Source: an uncultured Alphaproteobacteria bacterium (lineage in GTDB: Bacteria; Pseudomonadota; Alphaproteobacteria; Bin95). From it: a DNA stretch of 54,077 nt. Below the pieces are notes generated by a model. The model saw only the letters and a list, made by a program, of their open reading frames with translations. It ran no database searches and was not told the DNA's origin. Position numbers and translations under genes: made by a program. Positions 37,966 to 54,077 of this stretch are shown here, one piece after another. The DNA is taken from contig CALLKY010000004.1 of the NCBI GenBank assembly GCA_938083135.1, positions 1 to 54,077 of the forward strand. The letters are read 5' to 3'. Every line of letters begins with the position of its first letter. Within the stretch, counting starts at the first letter, position 1.

Positions 37966-37976
37966 GGATTGGGACC

Positions 37977-40386: not shown

Positions 40387-41474
40387 TCTGCTGCCTCCTT
40401 CTGCATGGCTTCCGCCGACGCGCGCATGCCGCGCAGCATCACAAGCTCGGACTGGAAATCGACGTAGTGCGGTAATTTCAAGTGCGAAACGAAGCCGGAT
40501 GCCTCAACGTTATCGCTGTGGGAGAGGACAAATTCCTCATCCTGCGGTGGATGCAGCCTGTCCTCCGCCAATTCATCCGCGCGCAAGGCCCGGTCAACCA
40601 GCGCCATGCCCATGGTTTTCCGCTCAGCCTGCCCGAAGGCCAGGCCATATCCGCGTGTAAACTGGGGCGCGATGCCTTTGGCACCCTTGAATTGGTTGAC
40701 CATCTGACATTCCGTCACCTCAATCTCGCCAAGCGCTATTGGGAAACCGAGTTCTTCCGGCGTGAATTCCACCTGCACCGTTCCCATGCGGATTTCGCCA
40801 GCAAAGGGATGGTTCCGCCCGTAGCCACGCTGGGTCGAATATCCAAGCGCCAGCAGAAAGCCCTCATCACCCCGGAATAGGTTCTGCAGACGTTGGTCGC
40901 GGCCTGCTGGAAATTGCATGGGCTCCCGCGTCAGGTCGTAGGGCTGCTCAGGACCGGGCGGCGGCGTCTCTGGCTCGATCAATCCTTCGTGGCCAAGAAT
41001 ATCGGCGACGCGCGGCATGGCGGCGTCTGTCGCATCTTCCTCCGGTGCAACTGGCGGCGTCTCGCCCCTTGCCGCAAGTGTGAAATCGAGCAAGCGGTGG
41101 GTGTAGTCGTAGGTCGGCCCCAGCACTTGCCCGCCGGGCAGGTCCTTGAACGCGGCAGAGATACGGCGACGAATGGTCATGGCGCCTGTGTCTATGGGCG
41201 CGCTGGCACCAAACCGCGGCAAGGTCGTGCGGAAAGCCCGCAGCAGAAATATTGCTTCAACCAAGTCACCCTGCGCTTGCTTAATCGCAAGTGCGGCTAG
41301 GTCTGGGTCATAGAGCGAGCCTTCGGTCATGACCCGATCAACGGCACCACCAAGCTGCTCCCGGATTTGCGCTGCTTCAAGCTCTGGCACAGCCGGATCG
41401 CCCCGGCGTTCTTCGGCGATCAGCGCGTGACTGTTCTCAATCGCTGCCTCGCCGCCTTTGGTCGCAACATACAT
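40383..41474 (-). CDS. phnI: C-P lyase core subunit PhnI
   Basis: Forms the nucleosidase part of the C-P lyase core that, with PhnG, H and L, attaches phosphonate to ribose from ATP. It has 363 residues. The opening MYVATKGGEAAIENSH and the later TPPPGPEQPYDLTREP and GYSTQRGYGRNHPF segments are typical. Six bases after phnH and four-base overlap with phnJ. Confidence 0.96.
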   Translation of the reverse strand: MYVATKGGEAAIENSHALIAEERRGDPAVPELEAAQIREQLGGAVDRVMTEGSLYDPDLAALAIKQAQGDLVEAIFLLRAFRTTLPRFGASAPIDTGAMTIRRRISAAFKDLPGGQVLGPTYDYTHRLLDFTLAARGETPPVAPEEDATDAAMPRVADILGHEGLIEPETPPPGPEQPYDLTREPMQFPAGRDQRLQNLFRGDEGFLLALGYSTQRGYGRNHPFAGEIRMGTVQVEFTPEELGFPIALGEIEVTECQMVNQFKGAKGIAPQFTRGYGLAFGQAERKTMGMALVDRALRADELAEDRLHPPQDEEFVLSHSDNVEASGFVSHLKLPHYVDFQSELVMLRGMRASAEAMQKEAAE

Positions 41475-41480
41475 GGGCGC

Positions 41481-42101
41481 TTACTCCTTCACAGGGTCTG
41501 CAGCGACAGTGCGCGGCAGGCCAACAACTGCGGAACCAGCTGCGAAAACAACGTCATACCCAAGCGGGTAAAGCGCCTGATTACGCGCCCATGCCATCCA
41601 GAACGCAGCACCGACGCCGGCGGGAGCAATATCTTGCACCGTTTTGATGCCCGGCCCGGTGAGGCGCATTGGCGTGCCGCTGGTAAAATCCGCCATCGCA
41701 CAGAGCAAAGTGGCAGACCGATCTGGATACTGGTCCTCACCAATCCGAAAGGTGTCAAAATCAGCATTTTCCGGGTTGAGCAGGATCGCAAAATGGGCAT
41801 CGCCTGACGCATCCACAATCGGCGCGCCAGCGTGGAAGCGAATGAAGGCTTCGGCAGAAGGGCTCCGGGCCGAGGCATCCAAATAGACCGTCGTGTCAGC
41901 ATCCAATAATGTAAGCGCAGCTGCAGCCAGCGCTGGGGGCCACCCTTCCGGCGCTTCGGGTGGGGCGGGAATATCAAACACGCGCCCCGGGAAGGACAGC
42001 GCGTTCAGAATGGCACGAAAGCTGGATTGCGCATCAAGCACAGGAGCTTGAAACCCAGCTTTTAGGTGCGTCATGTCAATTGCGGCTGGCTGCATGGGCA
42101 T
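41481..42101 (-). CDS. phnH: C-P lyase core subunit PhnH
   Basis: A 206-residue subunit of the C-P lyase core. The N-terminal GFQAPVLDAQSSFRAILNALS followed by FPGRV is the family marker, and the C-terminal half (GTPMRLTGPGIK ... FWMAWARNQALYPLGYDVVF) matches well. The start overlaps the phnG stop by one base; an ATG nine codons in is less likely. Confidence 0.95.
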   Translation of the reverse strand: MPMQPAAIDMTHLKAGFQAPVLDAQSSFRAILNALSFPGRVFDIPAPPEAPEGWPPALAAAALTLLDADTTVYLDASARSPSAEAFIRFHAGAPIVDASGDAHFAILLNPENADFDTFRIGEDQYPDRSATLLCAMADFTSGTPMRLTGPGIKTVQDIAPAGVGAAFWMAWARNQALYPLGYDVVFAAGSAVVGLPRTVAADPVKE

Positions 42102-42592
42102 TATCCTTCCGCCCGAACCATGGTGAAGAAATCAACCTTGGTGGCCCCAGCTTTCCGGCGGGCTGCGAGCCGTCTGGCCGCCTCCTCCGCCTTCAGCGGC
42201 TGGATTACAGCATCCATGACTTCCGCCTGCCGATCGGTTTGGAGCAGGGCGTCTACGAGCGCGGCCAGTTCTGCGTGCCGTGCATCACGGCCTTGCACAT
42301 AGCCATGCCCAACCGAGGCCGTCTCTCCTGTAAGCCGCAACGCGCATCGAGTGACCGTCATTTCACCCATATTGAAGGCAGCGCCCGTGCCGCCGGCCCG
42401 GCCTTGCACCATGATCGCGCCAATTTCGGGCTGACGTAGCCAATCGAATGCTATGGGCCCGCCAAGCGCCTCCATCTTGGCTGCCAACGACTTCGCTGGC
42501 GCGCGGCCAAGCACACCCATCCAATCGGACCTTTGTTTTTCACGGCCTTGGCTGGGGTCTGGAGTTTGGTCGGTTGGGTTTTGGTCTAACAT
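42101..42592 (-). CDS. phnG: C-P lyase core subunit PhnG
   Basis: About 163 residues, first gene of the C-P lyase operon. Recognised by RSDWMGVLGRAPAKSLAAKM and the later RAGGTGAAFNMGEMTVTRCALR with GHGYVQGRD. I chose the ATG at 42592; a reading frame extending to 42913 runs antisense through phnF and is rejected. The ribosome binding site is weak. It is divergent from phnF, with operator and promoter elements in the 90-base gap. Confidence 0.95.
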   Translation of the reverse strand: MLDQNPTDQTPDPSQGREKQRSDWMGVLGRAPAKSLAAKMEALGGPIAFDWLRQPEIGAIMVQGRAGGTGAAFNMGEMTVTRCALRLTGETASVGHGYVQGRDARHAELAALVDALLQTDRQAEVMDAVIQPLKAEEAARRLAARRKAGATKVDFFTMVRAEG

Positions 42593-42609
42593 CAGACAGC
42601 TTTCATATT

Positions 42610-42619
42610 TGTCTAGACA
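42610..42619. promoter_or_regulatory. HutC/PhnF-type operator between phnG and phnF
   Basis: TGTCTAGACA is a perfect ten-base palindrome containing GTCTAGAC, an exact fit to the GTnTAnAC core bound by HutC-subfamily GntR repressors. It lies 17 bases upstream of the phnG start, just downstream of minus-strand -10-like hexamers (GATATA or TATACA, with TTGCAG as a possible -35), where bound PhnF would block phnGHIJKLM. A degenerate second site, GTATATCT, lies next to it. PhnF probably also represses itself. Confidence 0.7.
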
Positions 42620-42682
42620 TCTGTATATCTGCACATTATCGTCAGGCTGCAATGATGTAAAGCTGGATATGATGAAGCTTTC

Positions 42683-43426
42683 ATGACGGAAAATTTTGTT
42701 GAAGAACCACCCCTGCTCAGGGGCTCTGGCGCAACGCTCTGGCGACAGATCGCATCCGCGCTTGAGGATGATATAAAAGCGGACAAATTTGCCGCCATGG
42801 ATGGTCGCCTGCCAACCGAGCGGGAACTGACTGAACGCTTCAACGTCAATCGCCATACTGTCCGCCGGGCATTGGCGACGCTGGCGGAAAGCGGGCTGGT
42901 GCGCACGGAACAAGGCCGGGGCGTTTTCGTGAACCGGGAGGTTGTTGACTACCCGCTGGGTAAGCGTGTCCGCTTCAGCGCCAATCTTTCAGCCCAGCAG
43001 CGCATACCCGCAGGGCGCATTCTTGCCTGCGTGAAGGAGCCGGTGGAGCGGGATGCGCGCACCGCCCTCGCCCTGAGAAAGAACGCCCAGATTTGGCGGG
43101 TCGAACGATTGGGCTTGGTTGACGGAGAACCATTCTCCCTTGCCTCCCACTATTTCAGCGCTGCACGGTTTCCAAAGCTGGGCCAAGCGTTTGAGACGAC
43201 GGATTCCATCACTGAAGCCCTTAAATCCTGCGGTCTTGCGGACTATGAACGTCAGGAAACGCGGATTTATGCACGCCCGCCCACAGCAGATGAAATCCGG
43301 CGTTTGGCTCTGCCCCGTGGCCGTCCCGTCCTAGTGACAGAGAGCATTAATGTGGACAACAACGGCCAGCCGACGGAGTTCGGCATTGCGCGATTTGCAG
43401 CAGACCGGATGCAAATAGTCGTCTGA
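42683..43426 (+). CDS. phnF: GntR-family (HutC subfamily) phosphonate regulator
   Basis: A 247-residue repressor. The N-terminal winged helix-turn-helix has LPTERELTERFNVNRHTVRRALATLAESGLV near 37-67, and a C-terminal UTRA ligand-binding domain spans about 95-245. The divergent position next to phnG and the matching operator support a PhnF role in controlling C-P lyase expression by a phosphonate or pathway metabolite. The ATG has a weak GAAG ribosome binding site. A hairpin follows directly after its stop codon. Confidence 0.92.
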   Translation: MTENFVEEPPLLRGSGATLWRQIASALEDDIKADKFAAMDGRLPTERELTERFNVNRHTVRRALATLAESGLVRTEQGRGVFVNREVVDYPLGKRVRFSANLSAQQRIPAGRILACVKEPVERDARTALALRKNAQIWRVERLGLVDGEPFSLASHYFSAARFPKLGQAFETTDSITEALKSCGLADYERQETRIYARPPTADEIRRLALPRGRPVLVTESINVDNNGQPTEFGIARFAADRMQIVV

Positions 43427-43462
43427 CCTTTGCAAGAACCGCAAAGGTATCGGCGATTTTTC
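43426..43462 (+). terminator. hairpin after phnF
   Basis: ACCTTTGC (43426-43433) and GCAAAGGT (43441-43448) form a perfect eight-base stem with a seven-base loop starting at the phnF stop codon. A T-run (TTTTTT, from about 43457) follows only after eight bases, so termination may be partial. Confidence 0.5.
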
Positions 43463-43488
43463 TCACAGAGATATGACTTGTGTAAAAT
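43460..43488 (+). promoter_or_regulatory. candidate promoter for the selenoprotein gene
   Basis: TTCTCA (43460-43465) and TAAAAT (43483-43488) are separated by 17 bases, giving a moderate sigma-70-like promoter 75 bases upstream of the ATG at 43563. It overlaps the T-run of the phnF hairpin. Confidence 0.35.
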
Positions 43489-43562
43489 GGGCGCGCGGGC
43501 GATGTGTGCTTATGCAGGCGCTGCAACGACGCGGACGCTTGCCTTAACCCATGGGAGCAACC

Positions 43563-44210
43563 ATGACACTTGAAGCCCAATTGGCGGGCATGCGAGAGGC
43601 TTCGGCCAAACGTATCCCCCCTGAAAAACGCGCAATTATGAAGCAGGCGACTGTGGATCAACGGGAGTCCGGCATTCTTGATCACACGATCAAGGTTGGC
43701 GACTCGCTACCAGATTTCAGCCTCAGTAACGCGAACGGCGTTGAGGTGCATTCTGGCGATCTGCTAAGCCAAGGCCCGATTGTCCTATCCGTATTCCGCG
43801 GCGTTTGGTGACCCTACTGCAACGCAGAGCTGTATGCTTTGCAAGCAGTGGCAGATGACCTCGCCCAATATGGTGCCACCATCGTAGCGCTCACGCCCCA
43901 GTTGCCTGAGCACAACGCTGAAATGGCGGTCAAGAATACTTTAAACTTCCACCTTCTAAGCGACCCCGGCAACGCCTATGCGGCAGAGCTTGGTTTGCGC
44001 TTTGAGGTGCCTAGTCAGATCAAGGAAATCTACGATGGGTTTGGGCTGAACTTGCCGAAATTCAACGGCGATAACAGCTGGACCTTGCCGATTCCGGCAC
44101 GAATCGTAGTTGATACATCTGGCATCGTAAGGATGGCGGATATCGACGCTGACTACACGAGCCGCCCGGAACCGTCCAAGACGGTCGCGGACGTAGCCTC
44201 ACTGGCCTAA
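43563..44210 (+). CDS. peroxiredoxin-like selenoprotein with in-frame UGA (Sec83)
   Basis: Read through the TGA at 43809-43811 this is a 215-residue AhpC/TSA-type thioredoxin-fold protein. The two halves are in one frame and match the peroxiredoxin-like family continuously: GDSLPDFSL near 45-53, then FRGVW-UGA-PYCNAEL, where relatives have W-C-P-Y-C-N, and later LSDPGNAYAAELGLRF and FNGDNSWTLPIPAR. The UGA replaces the peroxidatic cysteine, giving a U83-x-x-C86 redox pair. A SECIS-like hairpin follows directly. Predicted role: thiol- or glutathione-dependent reduction of peroxides or similar redox work in the cytoplasm. I chose the ATG at 43563 (GGAG five bases upstream) over 43551. It has its own promoter and a strong terminator. 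A nonsense mutation or sequencing error is the alternative, which the hairpin and two further cases nearby argue against. Confidence 0.88.
43809..43849 (+). promoter_or_regulatory. UGA codon and candidate bacterial SECIS element, peroxiredoxin-like gene
   Basis: After the UGA (43809-43811), GCAGAGC (43824-43830) pairs with GCTTTGC (43836-43842), a seven-base stem with loop TGTAT. Outer arms ACTGC (43816-43820) and GCAGT (43845-43849) add five pairs across a small internal loop. The loop starts 20 nt after the UGA and has G as its second base, which fits the published bacterial SECIS consensus (loop 16-37 nt from UGA, G among the first two loop bases). Confidence 0.75.
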
Positions 44211-44233
44211 CCGCCATCTGGCTGAAGACAGAG

Positions 44234-44267
44234 AACCGGCTGGGCGCGCACCGCCCAGCCGGTTTTT
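44234..44267 (+). terminator. strong intrinsic terminator after the selenoprotein gene
   Basis: AACCGGCTGGGCG (44234-44246) and CGCCCAGCCGGTT (44252-44264) form a perfect 13-base stem with a five-base loop, running into TTTTT and C. It lies 23 bases after the stop codon and 11 bases before the end of the convergent beta-propeller gene. Confidence 0.9.
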
Positions 44268-44278
44268 CTATGGTGCCA

Positions 44279-45601
44279 TTAGCCCCACTGCACCCGGGCT
44301 ACGGCGTAGGTCGAGCAATAGTAAATGTCCCGATCACCGCCCGGCGTGAGGAACATACCGTTCGCGATATGTGATCCGGTGCTGACACGGTCAATCACCT
44401 CACCCGTCGGTATATCAACGACAATCAGTTGATCATCGCCCGGCTTGAAATCATTGATCACAAGTTCGCCCGTTTTGGGGAATACCACCGGCTGCATAGA
44501 TGGCCGCGCATCGACAGTCCAACGGACTTTGAGATCGCCATCAGCATCCGAAATACCGGCCAGGCCGCCATTTACACTGTCCCAGGCGATACACATCTTG
44601 TGTTCAGGAACATAAACCGGCGGGGCTATGATGCCGCCGCCCGGCGTTCCAAACGGCGCAACCGATTGAATATCGCCGCTATTCAGCGAGACTTTCAGCA
44701 AACGCTGCGGGCCATCCCATGGTGCGGGACGCCGCCAGCTTAAGCGATGCTCTGGACCATCAAACCGACCATTCGGATGGACACCATAAATCGCCCGCAG
44801 ACTATCAATATCGCCATTATCCATGAGCCAAAGCGCATCGGATGAAACGCAGCCATCCCATGACAGGCCTTGCTGACCGGGTTCGTCACGATACTGCGGC
44901 CGCCAACTGTCATCCACCGTCATGCGGTCGCCATCAATATGGATGCGCCAAATATGTTCAATGCCGGGAATGTAGATGAACTCACCATCAGCGGTCAGGT
45001 CGCTGGCGATCCGCCCCATGGAGCCCTCAGGCAAGCGCAGTGGCTCACCGATTACTTCAAGCCCATCGGCAGCAAGACGCGTGATGGTGGATGGCCCCTG
45101 CCCTGCAAGCCGCAGGTCTTTGGTGACAATGCTGCCATCGCTCAAGATCAGCATTCCGTTATGGGCTTGATCGACAGGCAAGCGCCGTTCCGTGACCACT
45201 TGGCAATCAGGATCAAGGCGGTGCATATAGCAACCGTTGACCTCATAGATATCGCCATTCGCATGGGCCGCAATCGCGCCGCACCACACATGGCCGCCCG
45301 CTGGCAGTTTTGGCGATTCTGCAACGGGCGCCATGGTTTCCGGGTCTAGCTTTTGCAGCCAACCGTATGGCTCTGGTCCGTGCCAAGCAGGCATTGTGCC
45401 GCCGACATAGATCTCGCCCGGCCCCCGGCGGATCGCCATCACATGCCAGCGGTCATCATTCCGGCATATAACGCGGGCATCACTGCCGCGCGCATTCAAG
45501 CCACCTGTAGCTGCTTTCTGGCGCCTGTTACCGCCACACTCAACAGGCCAGGGCGATGGGTAATATCCGGGCAGTGGCCCAGCACGATCCTGATCCGTCA
45601 C
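44279..45601 (-). CDS. beta-propeller protein of unknown function
   Basis: A 440-residue protein with repeated strand-rich blades such as GEIYVGGTMP, NGDIYEVNGCYMHRL, GSIVTKDLRL, GEFIYIPGIEHIWRIHIDGD and TGELVINDFKPGDDQLIVVDIPTGEVIDRV. The pattern matches SMP-30/gluconolactonase or PQQ-like propellers, but I see no clear catalytic set and cannot name the family. No signal peptide is visible, so it is probably cytoplasmic. It starts with GTG overlapping the acyl-CoA ligase stop (TAGTG). As last gene of the selenoprotein-linked operon it may be a lactonase or a binding protein for the operon's substrate. Confidence 0.75.
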   Translation of the reverse strand: MTDQDRAGPLPGYYPSPWPVECGGNRRQKAATGGLNARGSDARVICRNDDRWHVMAIRRGPGEIYVGGTMPAWHGPEPYGWLQKLDPETMAPVAESPKLPAGGHVWCGAIAAHANGDIYEVNGCYMHRLDPDCQVVTERRLPVDQAHNGMLILSDGSIVTKDLRLAGQGPSTITRLAADGLEVIGEPLRLPEGSMGRIASDLTADGEFIYIPGIEHIWRIHIDGDRMTVDDSWRPQYRDEPGQQGLSWDGCVSSDALWLMDNGDIDSLRAIYGVHPNGRFDGPEHRLSWRRPAPWDGPQRLLKVSLNSGDIQSVAPFGTPGGGIIAPPVYVPEHKMCIAWDSVNGGLAGISDADGDLKVRWTVDARPSMQPVVFPKTGELVINDFKPGDDQLIVVDIPTGEVIDRVSTGSHIANGMFLTPGGDRDIYYCSTYAVARVQWG

Positions 45602-47160
45602 TACCCGACATTCCGGTCCCGGCCTTCCCAGAAGGGTGCGCGGAGTTCAAATTTTTGGATTTTGCCTGCACCGGACTTGGGCAAAGCCTCTTCCCGCACC
45701 TCAACAGTGCGTGGGCATTTATAGGGGGCGATCAAGTCCCGGCAGTGCGCAACGATGGCTGCTGGATCAGGTGTTTGGCCAGCGCGCGGGACCACAATTG
45801 CGTGGACAGCTTCACCCCATCGGTCGTCCGGAATGCCGATCACGGCGCATTCTGAAAGGCCAGGGAACTGCATGATGGCGTTTTCGACCTCGGCGGAGAA
45901 CACATTCTCACCGCCGGTGATGATCATGTCCTTCACCCGGTCAACGATATAGAGGAACCCTTCCTCATCCATAACGCCGCCGTCACCGGTATAGACCCAG
46001 CCGTCTTTCAGTGTTTCTGCAGTCTGCTCCGGCTTGTTCCAATAGCCCAGCATCGCGTTGGCACCACGCACCCGAACTTCGCCCGACTGGCCGCGCGGGG
46101 CTTCCGCACCTGTCTCATCCACGACCTCGATCTCGACCGCTGGAACCGCTTGACCAACAGACCGAATTTTCGCCGCCTTCGGGCCATCCAGAACGTGATA
46201 GTCGGAGCCCAGAAGGGTCGCGAGCGGCGCAAGTTCGGTTTGGCCATAGGCATGGATAAAGCGCGTTTCCGGCATCTTCTCCATGGCCTCTTTCAGGACC
46301 GACAGCGTCATTGGCGAGGCACCATAGATCAGCCGCGTCAGGCGGCTTGTATCTGCATCTTCTAGTTCCGACGCTTGTAGCAGCATGCCAATCATCGTGG
46401 GCACGAGCAGAGAAATCGTGCCGTCGAATTCCGTCACGGCGTTCAGGAAGGCTTTTGGCTCAAACCCTGGAATAAATGCGTGGCTGCCGCCGAAAATCGT
46501 CAGCGAGAACAGCATAGCGCTACCGGCGATATGGAAAAGCGGCGGGGCGTGAATGTTGCGGTCATCCGCTGTCACATTGGCACCAGCACCAAAGCACATG
46601 GAACTGGCCCACAGCGCACGATGCGGCAGCATCACGCCCTTCGGAAATCCGGTGGTGCCGCCAGTGTAGAATATACCTGCTAAGTCTTCGCCAGTACGGA
46701 ATGCATCATCGGCTGGGCATGCTTCAGCCACCAAGCCTTCATAAGACAGCATGCCAGCGGGGCAATCACCGTCGCCCGCAAAAATCACATGCTCTACGGT
46801 CGGGCATTCTTTCGCAATGGCTGCACCCATTTCAGCGAAAGCGTCATCGACCACCAAATACCTGGCACCGGAATCCTTGATTGAATAGACGTGCTCAGCC
46901 AGGGACCAGCGGATATTCATCGGCACGACGTTCGCACCGGCCCAGAAGACGCCGTAATAATATTCGGCATACCGGTCCTGATTGAACGAGAGCATCGCCA
47001 CGCGATCCTCGCCTTTCATCCCAAGCCCATGCAGCGCACCCGCAAGCCGTGCAACCCGGTCCTGGAACTCAGCCCAAGTGAAGGTCCGCTTTTCAGATAT
47101 CAGCGCAATCTTGCCAGGATTAAGCTTCGTAGCCCGGCGCAGGCCCTGGGTCATATACAT
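45601..47160 (-). CDS. AMP-forming acyl-CoA synthetase
   Basis: An ANL-superfamily ligase of 519 residues activating a carboxylic acid with ATP and CoA. The P-loop motif YTGGTTGFPKGV lies near 171-182, HAYGQTEL near 289-296, the hinge region YTGDGGVMDEEGFLYIVDRVKDMIITGGENVFS near 391-423 and the C-terminal catalytic lysine in PKSGAGKIQKFEL. Length fits medium or long-chain fatty acid or aryl acid ligases; substrate unknown. The ATG has GGAGG about 11 bases upstream. Downstream of the TauD-type dioxygenase in the same strand run, consistent with a catabolic pathway for a carboxylic acid. Confidence 0.92.
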   Translation of the reverse strand: MYMTQGLRRATKLNPGKIALISEKRTFTWAEFQDRVARLAGALHGLGMKGEDRVAMLSFNQDRYAEYYYGVFWAGANVVPMNIRWSLAEHVYSIKDSGARYLVVDDAFAEMGAAIAKECPTVEHVIFAGDGDCPAGMLSYEGLVAEACPADDAFRTGEDLAGIFYTGGTTGFPKGVMLPHRALWASSMCFGAGANVTADDRNIHAPPLFHIAGSAMLFSLTIFGGSHAFIPGFEPKAFLNAVTEFDGTISLLVPTMIGMLLQASELEDADTSRLTRLIYGASPMTLSVLKEAMEKMPETRFIHAYGQTELAPLATLLGSDYHVLDGPKAAKIRSVGQAVPAVEIEVVDETGAEAPRGQSGEVRVRGANAMLGYWNKPEQTAETLKDGWVYTGDGGVMDEEGFLYIVDRVKDMIITGGENVFSAEVENAIMQFPGLSECAVIGIPDDRWGEAVHAIVVPRAGQTPDPAAIVAHCRDLIAPYKCPRTVEVREEALPKSGAGKIQKFELRAPFWEGRDRNVG

Positions 47161-47246
47161 CGTGCGTCATCCTCCCGTCGCCCATTGTTTGGACGTTCGG
47201 CTGAATCGCTATCATTCAGAAGCTGGTAACGGCAATACCGAAAGTA

Positions 47247-48206
47247 TCACGCAGCAGGAACAACGCCTTCACCTTTGGTTTGTGTCCGCCACATGAAGCG
47301 CGCCTGGGATGTATCAACGGGGCTGCGCATATGCAGCATCATCCGGTTATCCCAAGCAACCACCTGCCCGACGCTCCATTTGTGGTGATATTGGAACTCC
47401 GGTTTGGTCGCATGTGCCCAAAGCTCATCCAGCAGCGCTTCGCTTTCATCAAGCGGCAAGCCTTCAACATAGGCATTGGTGCGGCGGCCAAGATAGAGCG
47501 CTTCATCGCCAGTGGATGGCACCGTGCGGATGATTGGATGCGCATGCCCGATAGCATCAATCGGGGAGGCTGGCACTTCCATGCCCGGGCGAATGATGCC
47601 GTTACTGGCATATGTGGAATCATGCTTGATTTTCAGCGGCAGCACTTTGCGCCGAAGCTCTTCCGGGAGCCCCTTGGCAGCCATAACCTGGCTGCAGAAA
47701 CCGGTATCGCCACCATCATCCGGAATGATCCGGGCATGCAGCAGGCTAAAGGTCGGCGGGGTCGGGATATAAGACATATCCGTATGCCACTCCCACTCGC
47801 CAAAGAACTTATCGGGCGTTTTCTCAACCTGCAGCGTCGTTGGCTCAACATTGCCGATATACGCCAAATATGGATCACGGCCTTTTGCTCTATGGGCAGC
47901 GACCTGTTCTTCAACGGTGAGATGTTCCTCACCCGGCAAGGCTTTCTTGCCAATGCCATTGATGAGCCCCGGCGCAAACTCATTCTCGCCGAACACTGCC
48001 GTCATAGCGTGGAGTTCTTCGACATCCAGCATGTGATTGAACTGGAAGCACAGTAGGCCGTGCCCATCCTTATAGGCGTCAAGGATCCCGGTCCGCTGCG
48101 CGTCAGTCATCTCGCTGGGCTTCAGGCCGGAAATTTCCGCGCCAAAGCGTGCGCCGCCCAAAGGCGAAACTAACATGTCACCATATTTTTTGATTGGCTG
48201 ATCCAT
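47247..48206 (-). CDS. TauD/TfdA-family Fe(II)/2-oxoglutarate dioxygenase
   Basis: About 319 residues. The 2-His-1-carboxylate iron site is visible: HTD in EWHTDMSYIP near 135-144 and the distal His in MMLHMRSP near 287-294, with the 2-oxoglutarate-binding Arg following in ARFMWRTQ. The family hydroxylates taurine, aryloxyacetates, sulfate esters or similar substrates, releasing sulfite, phenol or aldehyde; the substrate here is not known. The ATG at 48206 has AGGAG eight bases upstream; a TTG at 48224 is less likely. It follows the enolase-superfamily gene by 82 bases. Confidence 0.9.
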   Translation of the reverse strand: MDQPIKKYGDMLVSPLGGARFGAEISGLKPSEMTDAQRTGILDAYKDGHGLLCFQFNHMLDVEELHAMTAVFGENEFAPGLINGIGKKALPGEEHLTVEEQVAAHRAKGRDPYLAYIGNVEPTTLQVEKTPDKFFGEWEWHTDMSYIPTPPTFSLLHARIIPDDGGDTGFCSQVMAAKGLPEELRRKVLPLKIKHDSTYASNGIIRPGMEVPASPIDAIGHAHPIIRTVPSTGDEALYLGRRTNAYVEGLPLDESEALLDELWAHATKPEFQYHHKWSVGQVVAWDNRMMLHMRSPVDTSQARFMWRTQTKGEGVVPAA

Positions 48207-48272
48207 ACCGAAGCTCCTGTCCAAATCTATTTCAACGTAATCCTACAGTGGCCCAACGTCTTTGCAATCGGG

Positions 48273-48294
48273 AACTAGGGTAAGGACCCTAGTT
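48273..48294 (-). other. perfect hairpin overlapping the enolase-superfamily stop codon
   Basis: AACTAGGGT (48273-48281) and ACCCTAGTT (48286-48294) form a perfect nine-base stem with a four-base loop. The minus-strand stop codon TAG at 48291-48289 lies inside the stem. No T-tract follows. It could stabilise the upstream mRNA, reduce read-through into the dioxygenase gene or be a weak terminator. Confidence 0.5.
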
Positions 48295-49425
48295 GGCCTG
48301 CCAAGCCGCAGCAGACTCCATGCCATCAATCAACGCGGCGCTAAGGTTCACGCCGATACCCGGCCCATTAGGCAGTGGCGCAATGCCGCCTGTCACAAGG
48401 GGAAGAGCGGGTTCAACCAAGGTTTTGAACACAGGCGTTTCATCAAACTGAACTTCCAGCAGGTCCGCGTTTTCAACAGCCGCACATATCTGCATAGACG
48501 CAGCATGGCAGATGGGACCACTTGGATTGTGCGGGGAAAACGTAACGTCGTGGGCGGCGAACGCCTCTGCGATCCGCATCATTTCAGCGGGACCGCCCGC
48601 ATATTTCACATCCGGCATCATGACGTCATAGGCCCCGGCATTCAGCATCGGTTCAAACCCAGCCAGTTTGATCCCAGTTTCCGCCCCCGCGAGCCGAATG
48701 CCGAGCGCATTGGCTTGCGCCCGCAATCGCATCAACGCACCGAGCGCAATGGATTCTCTGGGGATCGGGCATTCGAACCAGTACAGGTCAAACGGTTCTA
48801 CGGCATCGAGCACCCATGATGCGGTCGATTCAGAAAAGCGCCAATGGCAATCGACCATGAGACGTGCGTCTGGGCCGATAGCGCTGCGCACCGCATCGAT
48901 CCTCGCCAATCCGGCCTCAACAAGTGGGCGCCATTGTCCTGGTGCCATATCGGGCGCTGCGCCATCAAACGGCGCAATCTTGAATGCTGAATATCCTGCT
49001 GCGACGGCCATGACTGCGTTCGCGGCGAACCCAGCCGGTGAGCGGTCTTCGGTGCGCCGATTGATGTTGGCATAAAGACCAATTGCGTCACGGCGCGCGC
49101 CGCCAAGTGCATCCGCCAAGCGACGGTCGGTTGATCGTGCATCCAAATCAGATGCCGCTTGCATAACGGCGGAGCTAAATGCGGCCTCATGCAAATTGCC
49201 GAACGGGAGGCTAGCAAACAGGCCCAATGTATCCCCGGCATCACGGCCCAACACTTGCCGACCATGCCCGTCAGCGACTTTGGCGACCGCTTCTTCTTTG
49301 CCGTTCAGCGTGCCTTCACCCAACCCTTTCAGCCTGCTTTCGCCTGTGAGTTCAACGAATAGCCATGCGGTTTTCGGGGAAATTCGAACGCCGATAAGCC
49401 TGATATCAGTAATTATTTCGCCCAC
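48289..49425 (-). CDS. mandelate racemase / muconate lactonizing enzyme family protein
   Basis: An enolase-superfamily enzyme of 378 residues that abstracts a proton alpha to a carboxylate. Metal ligands are visible as D in LMVDCHWRF near 200-208, E in WFECPIP near 226-232 and E in AGAETGIKL near 258-266. The KxK acid/base motif reads FKIAPFDG near 152-159, with only one lysine. A late SPHNPSGP holds the His typical of sugar-acid dehydratases. Likely a dehydratase or epimerase of a hydroxy-acid; substrate unknown. It starts with GTG eight bases after the first UGSC gene stop, so the two are co-transcribed. Confidence 0.88.
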   Translation of the reverse strand: MGEIITDIRLIGVRISPKTAWLFVELTGESRLKGLGEGTLNGKEEAVAKVADGHGRQVLGRDAGDTLGLFASLPFGNLHEAAFSSAVMQAASDLDARSTDRRLADALGGARRDAIGLYANINRRTEDRSPAGFAANAVMAVAAGYSAFKIAPFDGAAPDMAPGQWRPLVEAGLARIDAVRSAIGPDARLMVDCHWRFSESTASWVLDAVEPFDLYWFECPIPRESIALGALMRLRAQANALGIRLAGAETGIKLAGFEPMLNAGAYDVMMPDVKYAGGPAEMMRIAEAFAAHDVTFSPHNPSGPICHAASMQICAAVENADLLEVQFDETPVFKTLVEPALPLVTGGIAPLPNGPGIGVNLSAALIDGMESAAAWQAN

Positions 49426-49433
49426 AGCGCCGT

Positions 49434-49955
49434 CTAAGCCTCCATCAGAATTGGTAGGGATTGTTGATATGCGATTTCTGCCAATAATTTGACTTCATCT
49501 AAAGTACGGCTGCCGATTGGGTGCTCAACCATCACAAACGGATAATCTGGCAGGCCTAGCATGCGGGCAATGTTCTTTGCCGTTACCTCAAAAGGTTCCG
49601 TGCAGACAACAATCGCCCGTTTGCCTAATTGTTCGAAGCTGACGCCATCATGCAAACTGCACGTTGAGCAACTGCCTCAATCACCAAGCCCGGTTATGAG
49701 AAAATCGACCTCATCAGCTGCCTGCTGTAGCGTTTCGGTCGGTGCCGGCGCGCTGGCGTTGAACTTTGAATAAACCGGCGCAATCTGGCAGCCATGGCGG
49801 GCCGCGAACAAGTCCGCTGTTTCCCGCAGCATGTTGATCGCGTTCAGCTTGCCGTTATGCAAATAGCCAACGGTCTTGCCCTCCAAACTGATTAATGGCG
49901 GTGCCCGGCTGCTATTACGCTCCGGCCCCGCTACTGTTGGATCGTAGAGTTCCAT
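49434..49955 (-). CDS. UGSC-type selenoprotein 1 with in-frame UGA (Sec93)
   Basis: Read through the TGA at 49679-49677 this is one 173-residue protein. The N-terminal half has SLEGKTVGYLHNGK near 24-37 and a helix-rich middle; the Sec region reads ITGLGD-Sec-GSC-STC-SLHDGV, and the C-terminal half has CTEPFE and YPFVMVEHPIG. This is the UGSC motif of a family known by name but, to my knowledge, not by function. Both halves are in one frame, the paralogue at 52019-52540 has the same UGA, and a SECIS-like hairpin follows. Two more cysteines (GSC, STC) could form a selenylsulfide with Sec. The ATG is preceded by a very strong GAGGAGG. It lies 12 bases after the large partner gene and 8 bases before the enolase-superfamily gene, so it is expressed in one operon. 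Confidence 0.88.
49649..49679 (-). promoter_or_regulatory. UGA codon and candidate SECIS element, UGSC gene 1
   Basis: On the minus strand, after the UGA (49679-49677), CGUGCA (49663-49658) pairs with UGCAUG (49654-49649) around loop GUU, with further pairs possible outside an A/A mismatch. The loop starts 20 nt after the UGA with G first, matching the bacterial SECIS pattern and the position in the other two genes. Confidence 0.65.
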
Positions 49956-49967
49956 TCAATCCTCCTC

Positions 49968-51047
49968 TTAATCGCAATCAATGCAGACGCCAATCGGCTT
50001 TGACTGCATCAAAGAACTGCGCGCCCGGCTCCAGGATGGGATGAAGCAGGAATGCCCACCTGCATCGCCGCCGCCCATGATGATAAGAATATCGGCAGGG
50101 CCGATACCGCGATGCATATAATCGTCATGCAGTAATGGGCTGGCATGCGCTGGATCGCGCTGCCGGTCAAAATCCTGCTGGCGGAACTTACCGACAGCTT
50201 CCAACTCTGGCCTGCTCCGGCGTGCGTTCTCGAACAAGTAGTCTTGCGCCCGCTCCCGCGTCCACCCGGCATTGCCCATGATCCGCATATGCTCTGGTGC
50301 GAGCACGACGACCGATTGGCCAAGGGTTAGAACGCCCAGGCCCGCCATCGTATGCGCAATAGACCCCAGCACTTGTTCCGGCGTGCCACCGCCATGGTTC
50401 TCAATATTAAAGAACCCGCCGCCCGCGAAGGCCGTTACACTGCTAACACCTTCTGGATAGTCCAACGTCTCCACCAGCAACGGCCATGGGTTATCCCGGG
50501 CACGTTCAGCAATGCAGAAGCTGAACTTATTTGGGTTCCCCTGGGTCGACTTGTCGGAAATGCCAGGAATCATCTGGAATACATTCCGGAGAATCAGTCT
50601 GGTCGCGCGCCCAATTGTTCCGTTGGCGCGGTTGCCAGGGCCGAAAAGGTTCACATCCGCATTCATGCCAATTTCGTCACCAACGCCGCCACTTACGATC
50701 AATAAGGGCGCTGATCCGCCCGTGCTTGCGGTGGAGCCATGGAAATTGAAGTCCGGCTCATTCATGGCTTCAAATGCAGCCACGATCACCGGGAAATACT
50801 CTGGCAGACACCCCGCCATGACCGCGTTCACAGCGGCGGCGTGAATGGTGCACCCCAGGCCAGTCGCTGGGTGGGTTGCGATGACGGTTTCGGGCGGTCG
50901 CCCCTCATACATCATCATCGCATCGACACGCTCAACGACAGGCGGCACGACGGGCAAGCCATCGGTCCAGCCTTGCTCGTAGCAATAATCCATCGCTGCA
51001 AGCAGGTCGTCAGGCACATCATGGATACGGGCCGAATCACGTGGCAT
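49968..51047 (-). CDS. unknown protein, large partner of UGSC gene 1
   Basis: About 359 residues, not recognised by function. Shared landmarks with the second copy (52575-53621) are GWTDGLPVVPP near 26-36, AVNAVMAGCLPEYFPVIVAAF near 74-94, HGSTASTGGSAPLLIV, a GRATRLILRN segment, GNPNKFSFCIAE and the C-terminal PIGVCIDCD, a CxxC-type tail. Conserved cysteines in MAGC, FCIAE and the tail suggest a redox or metal role. No signal peptide or membrane segment. The ATG at 51047 has AAGGA eight bases upstream; a TTG at 51062 sits on that site. It precedes UGSC gene 1 by 12 bases and is divergent from the dioxygenase-like gene. It may be the enzyme that the selenoprotein serves. Confidence 0.8.
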   Translation of the reverse strand: MPRDSARIHDVPDDLLAAMDYCYEQGWTDGLPVVPPVVERVDAMMMYEGRPPETVIATHPATGLGCTIHAAAVNAVMAGCLPEYFPVIVAAFEAMNEPDFNFHGSTASTGGSAPLLIVSGGVGDEIGMNADVNLFGPGNRANGTIGRATRLILRNVFQMIPGISDKSTQGNPNKFSFCIAERARDNPWPLLVETLDYPEGVSSVTAFAGGGFFNIENHGGGTPEQVLGSIAHTMAGLGVLTLGQSVVVLAPEHMRIMGNAGWTRERAQDYLFENARRSRPELEAVGKFRQQDFDRQRDPAHASPLLHDDYMHRGIGPADILIIMGGGDAGGHSCFIPSWSRARSSLMQSKPIGVCIDCD

Positions 51048-51163
51048 TGCTCTATCCTTCAATCATTGCGCGGCGATAGTAACGCGCTACGGCGCAAACG
51101 TTGAATAAATTTGATAATGCAGGCCATCTTCCACAATTCCCGCGCCGGGGATAAACTTTACAC

Positions 51164-52006
51164 ATGAACAATATCTCCTCCCAGATCGCGGCAGATTACG
51201 CGCGCGACGGCTTTGTCTTTCCGCTGGACATTCTGTCGGCGGATGAAGCCCTGACCCTTCGTACTGACCTTGAAGAGGCAGAGGCGCTTTATGCTGATGA
51301 CCCCAAGAAGCGCGCCATGGTGCGTGGGTATCCAGCGCGCCTGCTGCCCTCATATGACGCGCTGATCCGCCACCCAAAAATGATTGCGGCAGCCAGCGCC
51401 GTGCTGGGGCCGGATCTGCTTGTATGGGGGTCTGGGCATTTCATCAAAGAAGCCAATACCACCAGTTATGTAAGCTGGCATCAGGACCTGACATATTGGG
51501 GTCTGGATGAGCCGGATGAAGCGACGCTTTGGGTTGCCCTATCGCCCGCCAGCGTGGAAGCCGGATGCATGCGCTTCATCCCCGGCAGTCATCGCGAGCG
51601 GATCATGCCCCATGCAGATAGCTTTGCGGATGAGAACTTGCTGACGCGCGGCCAGGAACTTCAGGTAGAGGTTAACGAAGCTGATGCTGTGGACGCAGCC
51701 CTCAAAACCGGCCAGGCATCCTTGCATCATGGCCATCTGTTCCATGCGTCCGGCCCAAACACCACGAATGATCGCCGGATCGGCGCGGCCATCCGCTATA
51801 TCAAGCCAAGCCTGAAAGCTGAAGCCGGGCCGGAAACAGAGGTGTCCCTTGTCGCCGGTGAAGACCGGTACGGCCATTTCAAGCTGATCGATCCGCCGAA
51901 GGAGAAACTGCTGCAGTCGGATCTTGACGCTATTGCTGCTGATATCGCCCGGCGCGAGGCGGTGCTGTTCGCCGGTGCCCAAGATATAGGGCACCGGCGC
52001 AGCTAA
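51164..52006 (+). CDS. phytanoyl-CoA dioxygenase (PhyH) family protein
   Basis: A 280-residue Fe(II)/2-oxoglutarate oxygenase. The HxD iron ligands lie in SWHQDLTYWG near 103-112, WVALSPASVEAGCMRFIPGSH near 124-144 is the family strand pair, and the distal His is in HGHLFHASGPN near 189-199, followed by a conserved Arg (NDRRIGAAI). Bacterial members hydroxylate diverse small molecules. It is on the plus strand between two minus-strand selenoprotein modules. Its 116-base upstream region is shared with the large partner gene 1, so the two may be co-regulated. The ATG has GGGGA about 11 bases upstream. Confidence 0.88.
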   Translation: MNNISSQIAADYARDGFVFPLDILSADEALTLRTDLEEAEALYADDPKKRAMVRGYPARLLPSYDALIRHPKMIAAASAVLGPDLLVWGSGHFIKEANTTSYVSWHQDLTYWGLDEPDEATLWVALSPASVEAGCMRFIPGSHRERIMPHADSFADENLLTRGQELQVEVNEADAVDAALKTGQASLHHGHLFHASGPNTTNDRRIGAAIRYIKPSLKAEAGPETEVSLVAGEDRYGHFKLIDPPKEKLLQSDLDAIAADIARREAVLFAGAQDIGHRRS

Positions 52007-52018
52007 GCGAACGCTGTA

Positions 52019-52540
52019 TCAGCCAGCGCCTGTCAGGATTTTAACGCTCTGGGCGACAGCAGTCTTCGCGCGGTCTCTGAGCGCTTCGTCGGACGCGCTG
52101 CTGATCGGATGATCGATCACGACAAACGGGAAGTCTTCCGCGCCCAAAACGCGCGCCATTAGGTCCGCCGCGTCAGAGAACGGCTCTGTCATTACACCTG
52201 CAGATGGGACACCCATCCGTTCGCCAGCCACTGCATCATGCAAACTGCACGACGAGCAACTGCCTCAATCGCCAACGCCGGATATAAGGGCGTCCCATTG
52301 CTGCGCTTCCGCCATAATGGCTTCAGGTGCAGGGGCGGAGTAATTGCCCTTGGTGCGCCAAATCACATCGGCGACGCCATGGGTTTCCCGCAATTCGGCT
52401 TCAATGGCCGCGAAGAAGCGCTTCGTGCCTTGCTTACCGTTAGAGATCACGCCAACGGTTTTGCCCGCCAGCGTGTCCAGCCGTGGCGGCGGCACGAGCC
52501 CCGCCACATCGGCTTCATGGGTTGGATCAAGAACTTGCAA
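52019..52540 (-). CDS. UGSC-type selenoprotein 2 with in-frame UGA (Sec92)
   Basis: A 173-residue paralogue of UGSC protein 1, read through the TGA at 52267-52265. The Sec region is ISGVGD-Sec-GSC-SSC-SLHDAV. Flanking conserved stretches are LAGKTVGVISNGK near 24-36 and, after Sec, MTEPFSD and FPFVVIDHPIS. The start is TTG; the alignment of DPT near residues 5-7 with paralogue 1 supports it, and GGGAG lies about 10 bases upstream. It follows its own large partner gene by 34 bases. It converges on the PhyH-type gene, 12 bases from its stop. The clear protein divergence from copy 1, with conservation of the UGA, argues against chance nonsense mutation. Confidence 0.88.
52234..52267 (-). promoter_or_regulatory. 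UGA codon and candidate SECIS element, UGSC gene 2
   Basis: After the UGA (52267-52265), CGUCGUGCA (52254-52246) pairs with UGCAUGAUG (52242-52234), a nine-base stem including two G-U pairs, around loop GUU. The loop starts 20 nt after the UGA and begins with G. Compared with gene 1, two base changes in the 5' arm turn an A/A mismatch into U-A and A-U into G-U, so the stem is kept and extended. Confidence 0.7.
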
Positions 52541-52574
52541 GTCTTACGGTCTCCCAGTTCAAATTTCAGACTGT

Positions 52575-53621
52575 TCAGATTTCACAATCGACGCAAACGC
52601 CGATGGGGATAGTTACGGCGCGGCTTTTGTGGCCAAGCCAAGGTGCAATAACGGCTCCGAAACCGCCAGCCGGTCCGCCAGCTGCAATCACCAACAGGTG
52701 ATCTTCATCGGGCAGTGCCGCATATTCCTGCTCGCCCCGCTGCTTGACGACAGAGCCCTTGCCAACGTCCGCCCATTCTTTGCGCAGAATTCGCGCCTTC
52801 TCGAACACATAGCGCCGCACATCAGCCTTCGACCATCCGGCCTTCTCAAAATGCGTGCGGAGCTGGGGGGCGATGACGATGGCGTAGTTGCCGGGCCAGA
52901 TCGAATAATGCCGCATATTCGCTTTGATTTCAGCAGCGAAGGTATCCAGGATTTCCTCAGGCTTTGTCGTCCACTCATTCATAAGCTGACGCGGTGCCAT
53001 CGCGGCCATAACCGTGACAGAGGACGCGCCGGGCGGGCAGTCACGCTCTTCCGCCAGTGGCACCCAGGTCGTGTTTTCCTCGTCCTCCGCGATACAATAG
53101 CTGAACTTTCCGGGGTGGCCCAATGTCGAGCGGTCGATATGGCCGGGGCGCACGTCCATCAAGTTAATCATCGTCAGCCGGATCGCCCGGCCGATGACCG
53201 ATGTCGCCCGGTCGCTCGAGCCGATGGCGTTAAACGCCCCGCTCATACCTAGCTCTTTGCGAACCGGCCCGTTGATGACGATAAGCACCGCACACCCACC
53301 GGTGCTGGCCGTAGCGCCATGCATCAAAAACGGCTCCTGCAGCATCGCTGTAAAGGCCGCGACGACCACAGGGAAATGCATCGGCAGGCAACCCGCCATA
53401 ACGGCATTGATCGCCAGCTTCTCCGCCGTGATCACCCGCTCGCGCACGGGCTCAATGCCGACAAGTTGGTCCGGCGTCATCAGCGCCCAATCGAGGCAAG
53501 CCTGAACGACTTCCTCCGTTGGCGGCACAATCGGCAACCCATCCGTCCACCCCCGCGAATGATAATATTCCTGCGCCGCCGCCATATCAGCAACGTCGTG
53601 GGTGCGAGAGGCAAAGGTCAT
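52575..53621 (-). CDS. unknown protein, large partner of UGSC gene 2
   Basis: A 348-residue paralogue of the protein at 49968-51047. Shared motifs are GWTDGLPIVPPTEE near 24-37, LAINAVMAGCLPMHFPVVVAAF near 70-91, HGATASTGGCAVLIVI, GRAIRLTMIN, GHPGKFSYCIAE and the C-terminal PIGVCVDCEI. The GGGDAGG stretch of copy 1 appears as AGGPAGG. Function unknown; conserved cysteines include the tail pair. The ATG is preceded by GGAG at about 10 bases, and a good -10 (TATACT) lies 30 bases upstream. It forms a two-gene unit with UGSC gene 2. Confidence 0.8.
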   Translation of the reverse strand: MTFASRTHDVADMAAAQEYYHSRGWTDGLPIVPPTEEVVQACLDWALMTPDQLVGIEPVRERVITAEKLAINAVMAGCLPMHFPVVVAAFTAMLQEPFLMHGATASTGGCAVLIVINGPVRKELGMSGAFNAIGSSDRATSVIGRAIRLTMINLMDVRPGHIDRSTLGHPGKFSYCIAEDEENTTWVPLAEERDCPPGASSVTVMAAMAPRQLMNEWTTKPEEILDTFAAEIKANMRHYSIWPGNYAIVIAPQLRTHFEKAGWSKADVRRYVFEKARILRKEWADVGKGSVVKQRGEQEYAALPDEDHLLVIAAGGPAGGFGAVIAPWLGHKSRAVTIPIGVCVDCEI

Positions 53622-53650
53622 AGGGTACAGGCTCCAATTCGGGAGCGCGC

Positions 53651-53656
53651 AGTATA
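53651..53656 (-). promoter_or_regulatory. -10-like element for the second UGSC module
   Basis: TATACT on the minus strand, 30 bases upstream of the ATG at 53621. No good -35 at 16-18 bases; TTGCCC is too close. Weak evidence by itself. Confidence 0.3.
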
Positions 53657-53766
53657 GTGGCTACGCAGTGGGCAAGACCAGTGAGCGATCACACGCTTCA
53701 TGATAAATTTGAAACTCGCGTATCATAGGCTAACGGCTTTCAGCATCTTAGCGCCAAAGGGTTTGC

Positions 53767-53907
53767 TCAGGGCGTCCAGTGACGGTATTGCTCAACATCC
53801 AAAATCTCATCTGCTGGGGCAATGATCAACCCGAACGGTGCCGTGTTGTTGATCGCACCTCCCAAAGCAGCTCGGAGACTGAAGGATCGACAATGTATTA
53901 CATTGAA
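53767..53907 (-). pseudogene. remnant of a coding sequence next to the insertion sequence
   Basis: The frame is open from a TAA at 53910-53908 to a TGA at 53769-53767 and encodes a coding-like stretch (GGAINNTAPFGLIIAP, then DEILDVEQYRHWTP) with no start codon before its middle. It reads like the C-terminus of a lost gene whose upstream part was removed near the insertion sequence. I do not recognise the family. It could also be chance. The surrounding sequence (53657-53766, 53908-53941) shows nothing else convincing. Confidence 0.3.
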
Positions 53908-53941
53908 TTACTGCGTGCGATTGGATTTACATTATTATTAA

Positions 53942-54077
53942 GGGGCTGGCCTAGATAGCTGAGAAAGGCTATGCAGGTCATATGGTTAGCATGCGTCGGC
54001 GGAGTAGGCTTCCGCGAAGTATTCAGATTGAGCTGATCAAGTATTTCGTTGCAGGTTCGACGGCGCGCTCAGCCGCC
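53942..54077 (+). mobile_element. left end of an IS1595-family insertion sequence (cut by window)
   Basis: GGGGCTGGCCTAGATAG at 53942-53958 looks like a terminal inverted repeat of the IS1595/ISPna2 group, and a transposase start follows at 53982. The bases just outside (ATTATTAA) could be one copy of the 8-base target duplication. The right end lies outside the window, so the element cannot be confirmed as complete. Confidence 0.65.
53982..54077 (+). CDS. IS1595-family transposase, N-terminal fragment
   Basis: Only the first 32 residues are in the window. They have RRRSRL near 5-10 and LIKYFVAGSTARSAA near 18-32, matching the N-terminal helix-turn-helix of ISPna2-like transposases, which begin RKSRLS and continue with LIxxFVAGxTARxAA. 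The start may be ATG at 53982 or 53991. It lies 24 bases inside the candidate inverted repeat. Confidence 0.65.
   Translation, partial: MVSMRRRSRLPRSIQIELIKYFVAGSTARSAA

Follow-up and report, generated by a model that had tools for sequence, protein, structure and literature searches.

A UGSC-family selenoprotein, its near-obligate partner and a putative remote kinship with PrdB and GrdB

Results

Two UGSC genes, each directly downstream of a large companion gene

The 54,077-nt stretch of DNA analyzed here (the window; contig CALLKY010000004.1 of an uncultured alphaproteobacterium, the source genome) carries on its minus strand, at 49434..49955, a gene for a selenoprotein of 173 residues, which we call UGSC1. 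Its reading frame starts with ATG, is closed by a stop codon and contains a single internal TGA within GLGD-U-GSC-STC-SLHD; this codon (49677..49679, minus strand) corresponds to selenocysteine (Sec) 93. When the TGA was translated as Sec, the UGSC profile PF24696 matched the protein with 153.7 bits (cut-off 25) over residues 3–170, and thus both before and after the UGA, in agreement with the initial annotation, which had described a UGSC-family selenoprotein with an in-frame TGA in GD-U-GSC-STC. The NCBIfam model NF041046 gave 117.6 bits, which is below its cut-off of 125, and the family assignment of UGSC1 is therefore based on PF24696.

Directly upstream on the same strand lies the gene of a large companion protein, partner A (49968..51062; 364 residues from the listed TTG, although an ATG at 51047 agrees better with the relatives). 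Partner A ends 12 nt before UGSC1, and 8 nt after UGSC1 follows the gene of an enolase-superfamily enzyme (starting at 49425), exactly the gaps originally reported. The arrangement occurs twice in the window: UGSC2 (52018..52540, minus strand, TTG start; PF24696 172.5 bits, NF041046 131.1 bits, above the cut-off), with its Sec UGA at 52265–52267 (minus strand), is directly downstream of partner B (52575..53621, minus strand), a protein related to partner A. UGSC2 and partner B are thus a second copy of the UGSC1–partner A pair. The frame of UGSC2 reaches another UGA at 52018–52020, 82 codons after the Sec UGA, which was taken as the stop, so that within this gene UGA seems to serve both as Sec and as stop codon. 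In total, the source genome contains six UGSC genes on five contigs, with exactly one in-frame TGA each.

Evidence for selenocysteine coding

UGSC1 was compared codon by codon with 28 distinct orthologues containing a single TGA. The numbers of differences at codon positions 1/2/3 were 435/210/1020 after the UGA (up to 69 codons) and 611/408/1088 before it, a pattern suggesting that the stretch downstream of the UGA evolves as a translated frame and that purifying selection acts on both sides. Across all 14 genomes of the order there were 62 UGSC matches. One in-frame TGA was present in 61 of them; the exception is a fragment of 46 positions that lies close to the start of a contig. Among 77 non-identical UGSC sequences the motif residue was Sec, encoded by UGA, in 66, Cys in nine and neither in two, which supplies the ratio of Sec to Cys forms that the initial annotation had left to be counted. 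That annotation had also named a frame ending at the UGA, or a genome lacking the Sec machinery, as evidence that would speak against a selenoprotein. No homologue ending at the UGA was found; the Cys form at locus L057 is broken in another way, with its halves in two frames and a TGA elsewhere. The source genome encodes SelA (531.9 bits), whose gene is immediately followed by that of SelB (451.4 bits), as well as SelD (289.4 bits) and tRNA-Sec (67 bits).

The element resembling a selenocysteine insertion sequence (SECIS) extends from the UGA to +47 (49632..49679, minus strand) and was examined by shuffling and consensus folding. The 48 nt from the UGA of Sec genes folded into more stable structures than their synonymous-codon shuffles (mean z −1.97, 81% below −1; 53 distinct sequences), whereas the corresponding 48 nt from the motif position of nine Cys genes were not (mean z 0.01), and the hairpin proposed from the UGSC1 sequence is supported by this difference. 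Of the window genes, UGSC2 had a z of −2.22 and UGSC1 a weaker one of −1.14. The piece from +14 to +32 formed a hairpin in all 53 Sec sequences when each was folded singly, and the apical stem of the UGSC1 element comprises +16 to +30 (49663–49649, minus strand). RNAalifold found a common 6-pair stem (−6.5 kcal) in 12 diverse 48-mers. Two results count against a SECIS: the folding of all 46 distinct 48-mers together left nearly no consensus (−0.6 kcal, 3 pairs), and no Rfam SECIS family matched at E≤1 in 44000–54077. Overall, the computations confirm that UGSC1 is a real selenoprotein gene with a SECIS-type hairpin immediately downstream of the UGA.

At the stem pair +20/+26, eight of the 12 diverse sequences have C-G and the other four G-C, a compensatory change. 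At the protein level the swap replaces Cys (TGC) by Trp (TGG), and Leu (TTG/CTG) by Phe (TTC), Val (GTC) or Ile (ATC). Loci with the swapped pair, unlike the window, include L052, L055, L115 and L082. The sequences suggest that, in the lineages concerned, the third residue of UxxCxxC follows the RNA stem and not the chemistry. Of the 66 Sec forms, 52 have Cys, eight Ala and six Trp at this position. The view of Sec-x-x-Cys-x-x-Cys as a fixed and unusual cluster did not hold, since the third Cys is absent from 14 of the 66 Sec forms and UxxCxxC has also been described for GrdB (PMC13188914).

The large upstream protein is the constant companion of UGSC

A partner gene was located within 400 nt on the same strand of 71 of the 77 non-identical UGSC genes, and at a distance of 520–893 nt from four others (L063, L064, L067, and L068). 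The stretches examined contained no partner for L050 and L073, which have the motif form UGSCTTC in common; only 1184 nt precede the gene in L050. These counts are subject to ascertainment bias, as 32 of the 77 loci had been found via the partner (22 genome contigs and 10 plasmids, the latter being 10 of 24 matching plasmid records). When the 32 loci were left out, the partner was within 400 nt of 39 of the remaining 45 UGSC genes, at 520–893 nt from four and missing from two. Viewed from the other side, 22 of the 23 genome-contig loci retrieved with partner A have a Sec UGSC just downstream, and the remaining locus (L047) stops short of that position.

The two proteins also co-occur and are fused. 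In a test less prone to this ascertainment bias, the UGSC and partner profiles matched the identical five of 398 sampled genomes (the source genome and four others); in the source genome, five of the six UGSC genes have a partner beside them. In nine of 14 genomes of the order (L053 and L127–L134), UGSC and partner form one frame with Sec, 574–578 residues long, of which 473 residues are counted from the UGA on. Orthologues of UGSC1 (64–79% identity) retain the partner as their sole conserved neighbour. Adjacency, co-occurrence and fusion thus identify the upstream large protein, and not the enolase, as the near-obligate companion of UGSC. A UGSC/Unknown_1 fusion was reported in a 2008 marine survey (PMC2398784), and its Unknown_1 may be the same partner.

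Cys81 and Cys179 (partner A numbering) are nearly invariant in the partner. A C-terminal CxxC tail was considered as a redox relay and dropped, as it was found in just 26 of 89 distinct hits. Profile comparisons of the partner (42 members) with Pfam gave no relation apart from two chance-level families, its comparison with GrdB gave none, and a match among PDB sequences, FtsB at E 0.018, was taken as chance. The model of a 575-residue fusion had a pLDDT of 82.1 and a pTM of 0.84, and its VIA rows cover mostly the UGSC half; Foldseek rows pointing to an FtsZ fold had an E of 9e-4 but a TM of 0.19 on this model and were not credited.

Some loci deserve separate mention. In L050 (425–1691), the partnerless Sec UGSC lies downstream of a gene whose product has a response-regulator receiver domain. 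The pair also occurs in the relative Reyranella massiliensis (L049). A gene annotated as phosphosulfolactate synthase occurs near the pair in Arthrobacter (L108, 4713–5501) and near the Cys-form pair of the haloarchaeon Natrinema zhouii (L109, 3889–4356), which is a possible substrate hint. The phage records contained no match to UGSC1.

Profile comparison with PrdB and GrdB

The UGSC profile was compared by hhalign with 53 GrdB/PrdB sequences, among them PrdB genes annotated in Terrisporobacter, Peptoclostridium, Ligilactobacillus, and Enterococcus plasmids. The match reached 91.6% (score 47.6) with Sec aligned on Sec, at an E of 8e-7 that, like all hhalign E-values here, applies to one single comparison. 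Masking of the four motif columns on both sides left the score intact (92.3%, score 48.7, with the motif register off by one), and the match is therefore independent of the motif. Disjoint subsets behaved alike, four annotated PrdB scoring 41.3 and the 48 others 41.9. Among the controls, the reversed profile scored 11.6, the best of 60 block-permuted profiles 31.35, and the best of 21 other ORF (open reading frame) clusters taken from the same loci 23.4; these clusters included at least two antisense shadow frames and the partner, and two clusters with UGSC were left out. The results show profile homology between UGSC and PrdB/GrdB, according to which UGSC would be remotely related to the Sec subunit of the D-proline and glycine reductases. 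The kinship is a matter of profile–profile comparison, and membership of PF07355 is not claimed, because direct matches to that family were not obtained (0 of 41 UGSC proteins at E≤0.1).

The source genome itself has five GrdB/PrdB-like genes (L118–L122; contigs 69, 106, 33, 99, and 97), each with one in-frame TGA. They match TIGR01918 below its cut-off and form a branch separate from UGSC, and the search for partners gave none on the contigs that carry them. In the class, 49 of 385 genomes had a TIGR01918 match, none over the cut-off. In Roseomonas haemaphysalidis (L195, 2890–5275), a Cys-form GrdB-like gene stands beside a gene annotated as protein adenylyltransferase SelO.

Predicted fold of UGSC

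An AlphaFold2 model of UGSC1 built from 39 sequences had a pLDDT of 90.5 and a pTM of 0.86. Strands and helices alternate in the model, and Sec93 is placed between strand 85–91 and helix 94–108. Structural matches were Rossmann, flavodoxin-type or receiver-like proteins with a Z of about 8–10, and the predicted fold would be a Rossmann/flavodoxin-type sandwich; the matches may reflect just a common arrangement. The top match, 8s7v chain H (Z 10.4, 131 residues, root-mean-square deviation 3.1), was tied with a designed protein and was not taken as kin. Sequence searches gave no convincing solved relatives of UGSC or GrdB-like proteins. A likely thioredoxin-like fold was proposed for UGSC in the 2008 survey (PMC2398784). 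The model does not support it, given the strand–helix alternation and the absence of thioredoxin among the structural matches listed, although such an absence falls short of proof.

Thioredoxin-system genes near UGSC

The flanking ORFs of 56 loci were compared (in the window from 40000 on; 23 of the loci represent one orthologue group). A thioredoxin-reductase-like ORF, in every case with CxxC, was present in nine of them, and four of the six tested exceeded the cut-off of TIGR01292, L052 and L116 being below it. The distance from the UGSC or partner match was 13 nt in L055, 15 nt in L052, 155 nt in Roseovarius, and 332 nt in Arthrobacter. L052 is the C3 locus of the source genome and has the order UGSC–partner–partner–reductase, in which the last two ORFs overlap by 4 nt. 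The Arthrobacter locus has trxB and trxA immediately before partner and UGSC, with a 4-nt overlap between the thioredoxin gene and the partner. The partners of L051, L056, and L058 are preceded by N-terminal extensions with CxxC (CPTC, CHTC or CETC), which with modest confidence may be called thioredoxin-like; the copies in the window have no such fused domain. The thioredoxin system is a likely electron donor of the UGSC pair.

Local neighbours of the pairs in the window

Downstream of UGSC1 and on the same strand are the enolase-superfamily gene (48289..49425), a TauD/TfdA-type dioxygenase (47247..48224), an AMP-binding acyl-CoA ligase (45601..47160), and a protein without a family match above cut-off (44279..45601), all on the minus strand. 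By the listed ORF starts, the gaps in the run from partner A on are 12, 8, 64, and 86 nt, followed by a 1-nt overlap between the last gene and the ligase end, and these genes may share the UGSC1 transcript. A PhyH-type dioxygenase gene (51164..52006, plus strand) separates the two pairs and is oriented divergently to partner A. By the look of its translations, the region of about 36000–43400 is a putative carbon–phosphorus lyase (phn) gene cluster.

Elsewhere these neighbours were different. In the flanks examined of other UGSC1-type genes there was no TauD of at least 30% identity; the TauD of L147 (38% over 164 residues) lies approximately 8 kb from a UGSC2-type gene. A ligase of at least 30% identity was found near UGSC1-type genes only in L036 (34%), and a further six of the 23 contig loci have weaker ligase-like ORFs (27–28%), so that distant ligase-like ORFs (27–35%) occur in seven in all; three of the 23 have enolase-like ORFs (27–30%). 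Enolase-superfamily ORFs near the UGSC1-type genes of L135–L139, five loci of the same family, are 28–31% identical to that of the window (L135 30.5%). The comparison suggests that the enolase, TauD and ligase genes do not belong to the conserved surroundings of UGSC. A loose functional theme among the neighbours is possible; a fixed pathway with UGSC1 is not supported. The initial proposal that UGSC1 is tied to a specific pathway with the enolase agrees with the common strand and the short gaps but is not supported by the orthologues, in which the partner alone is conserved.

Discussion

UGSC is mostly described as an abundant family (PMC2398784, PMC9312934, PMC5029168, PMC9402790, PMC13188914), and it ranks with the abundant selenoprotein families of the sea and of other waters. 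It accounts for 8.2% of selenoprotein genes in one report (PMC9402790), is given as most frequently used in non-marine samples (PMC2398784), and is said to be rarely distributed in algae (PMC7539508). The marine survey lists 255 Sec and 21 Cys forms (PMC2398784). No function is given in the published descriptions that we found of the family, in line with the initial annotation, and beyond the UGSC/Unknown_1 fusion the literature covered, with preprints and most subscription papers outside its scope, has no link between UGSC and GrdB/PrdB or the partner. New here are the constant partner, the PrdB/GrdB kinship, the thioredoxin links of some copies, and the predicted fold, which looks to be of the Rossmann/flavodoxin rather than the thioredoxin type.

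We propose that UGSC and its partner probably form a thioredoxin-dependent two-component selenoreductase, similar to PrdB/GrdB but with a different large subunit. The pair is read as a thioredoxin-driven reductase because of the PrdB/GrdB kinship and the near-constant large partner. In D-proline reductase, as described in PMC3091704, the pyruvoyl group of PrdA is proposed to hold the proline while the Sec of PrdB attacks its α carbon, and the selenoether is resolved by a Cys to give an Se-S bond that PrdC reduces; for glycine reductase the same source gives the electron route NADPH, thioredoxin reductase, thioredoxin, GrdA, GrdB. By analogy, the Sec selenolate of UGSC, placed at the helix start, would attack a substrate that is bound by the partner or together with it, and reductive cleavage of a carbon–heteroatom (or similar) bond of the substrate would follow. 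Cys96 of the UxxC motif might then resolve the product, leaving an Se-S bond, which thioredoxin, recharged by thioredoxin reductase and NADPH, would reduce. Catalysis, the order of the steps and substrate binding by the partner are what we infer for this scheme.

Several observations weigh against a reductase of this kind. With respect to the donor, no thioredoxin-reductase-like ORF was found in window positions 40000–54077 or in 47 of the 56 loci; five of the nine that were found are 1.0–5.3 kb away, two of these five (L058 and L117) are on the other strand, and the frequency of such ORFs is a raw count. The match of the fused extensions to thioredoxin is weak: that of L058 reached 21.1 bits with PF00085 (E 3e-4), under the cut-off of 23.5, that of L056 matched YkuV at E 2.7e-4, and that of L051 had nothing better than E 0.14. 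As to the kinship, a profile of five UGSC-type ORFs from other loci scored 36.7 (60%), an earlier comparison with a shallow alignment of 11 GrdB-like selenoproteins gave 23–27%, and 7% with the motifs masked, and the missing direct matches to PF07355 belong here too. No pyruvoyl subunit was found, and the comparisons of the partner with PrdA, PrdD and PrdE gave E-values of 0.29–0.4 with just three and four sequences, the value for PrdA being 0.29 in a weak test with three sequences. Finally, UGSC–partner fusions of Vibrio europaeus (L113, 6368–8053) and Sporomusa termitida (L114, 6329–8053) have Met in place of Sec or Cys (DMGTS). These Met-form fusions are near aconitase X and DUF126 genes.

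Other explanations account for parts of the data. UGSC could have a thioredoxin-like fold and be a general thiol/selenol oxidoreductase (a disulfide reductase or peroxidase) that shields neighbouring enzymes and whose substrates are just peroxides or disulfides. The UxxC motif and the thioredoxin and thioredoxin reductase links of some copies would fit, but the model is an alternating β-α sandwich with no thioredoxin among the structural matches listed, and a near-obligate partner of about 350 residues is left unexplained, so we regard this as unlikely. It is similarly improbable that UGSC1, the enolase-superfamily enzyme, TauD, acyl-CoA ligase, and PhyH make up one catabolic pathway for a single organic acid, with the selenoprotein as a pathway step. 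The common strand with short gaps by the listed ORF starts would be expected from such a pathway, as would the enolase-superfamily ORFs of L135–L139 and the distant ligase-like and enolase-like ORFs of other loci. These enolases, however, are just 27–31% identical to that of the window, UGSC1-type genes have no TauD of at least 30% identity beside them and only one such ligase (L036), and the six UGSC genes of one genome are spread over five contigs.

A non-enzymatic role, in which the UGSC pair would be a redox-sensing or cofactor-handling module tuning adjacent enzymes or regulators, appears very improbable. It would suit the differing neighbours of the loci, the position of the partnerless UGSC (L050) after a response-regulator-domain gene, and the Met that replaces the nucleophile in two fusions; yet the retention of Sec or Cys in 75 of 77 sequences, and of Sec in 66, speaks for chemistry, as does the PrdB/GrdB kinship.

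Returning to the selenoreductase, the partner, the kinship, and the likely electron donor turn a selenoprotein of unknown function into a testable enzyme. As a more tentative extension, which we consider possible although we would not count on it, UGSC and partner may represent an unrecognised class of selenoreductases supplied by thioredoxin, in which a PrdB/GrdB-type Sec subunit was recruited to a new large subunit that replaces the pyruvoyl enzyme and then multiplied. The resulting paralogues, six in this genome, would each reduce a different small organic compound, and Stickland-type selenium chemistry would operate in Alphaproteobacteria and, with Cys, in haloarchaea. If this is true, selenium chemistry best known from amino-acid-fermenting anaerobes serves other bacteria too.

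With the published UGSC family (PF24696/NF041046; PMC2398784), the proteins described here share the family profile, the Sec-G-S-C motif, and the predominance of Sec forms, and they go beyond its description in the distant PrdB/GrdB kinship, the near-obligate partner, and the Rossmann/flavodoxin-type model. Unlike PrdB/GrdB (PF07355, TIGR01918), UGSC has no direct match to that family, and its larger partner showed no likeness to PrdA, PrdD or PrdE in the comparisons with three and four sequences. The range of UGSC also differs, comprising Alphaproteobacteria (the most searched) and plasmids of haloarchaea, Arthrobacter, Variovorax, and others. In common, the two groups have Sec-x-x-Cys at an equal profile position together with the surrounding segment, and a small Sec subunit gene that adjoins the gene of a larger subunit; some UGSC copies further resemble glycine reductase in their association with a thioredoxin system.
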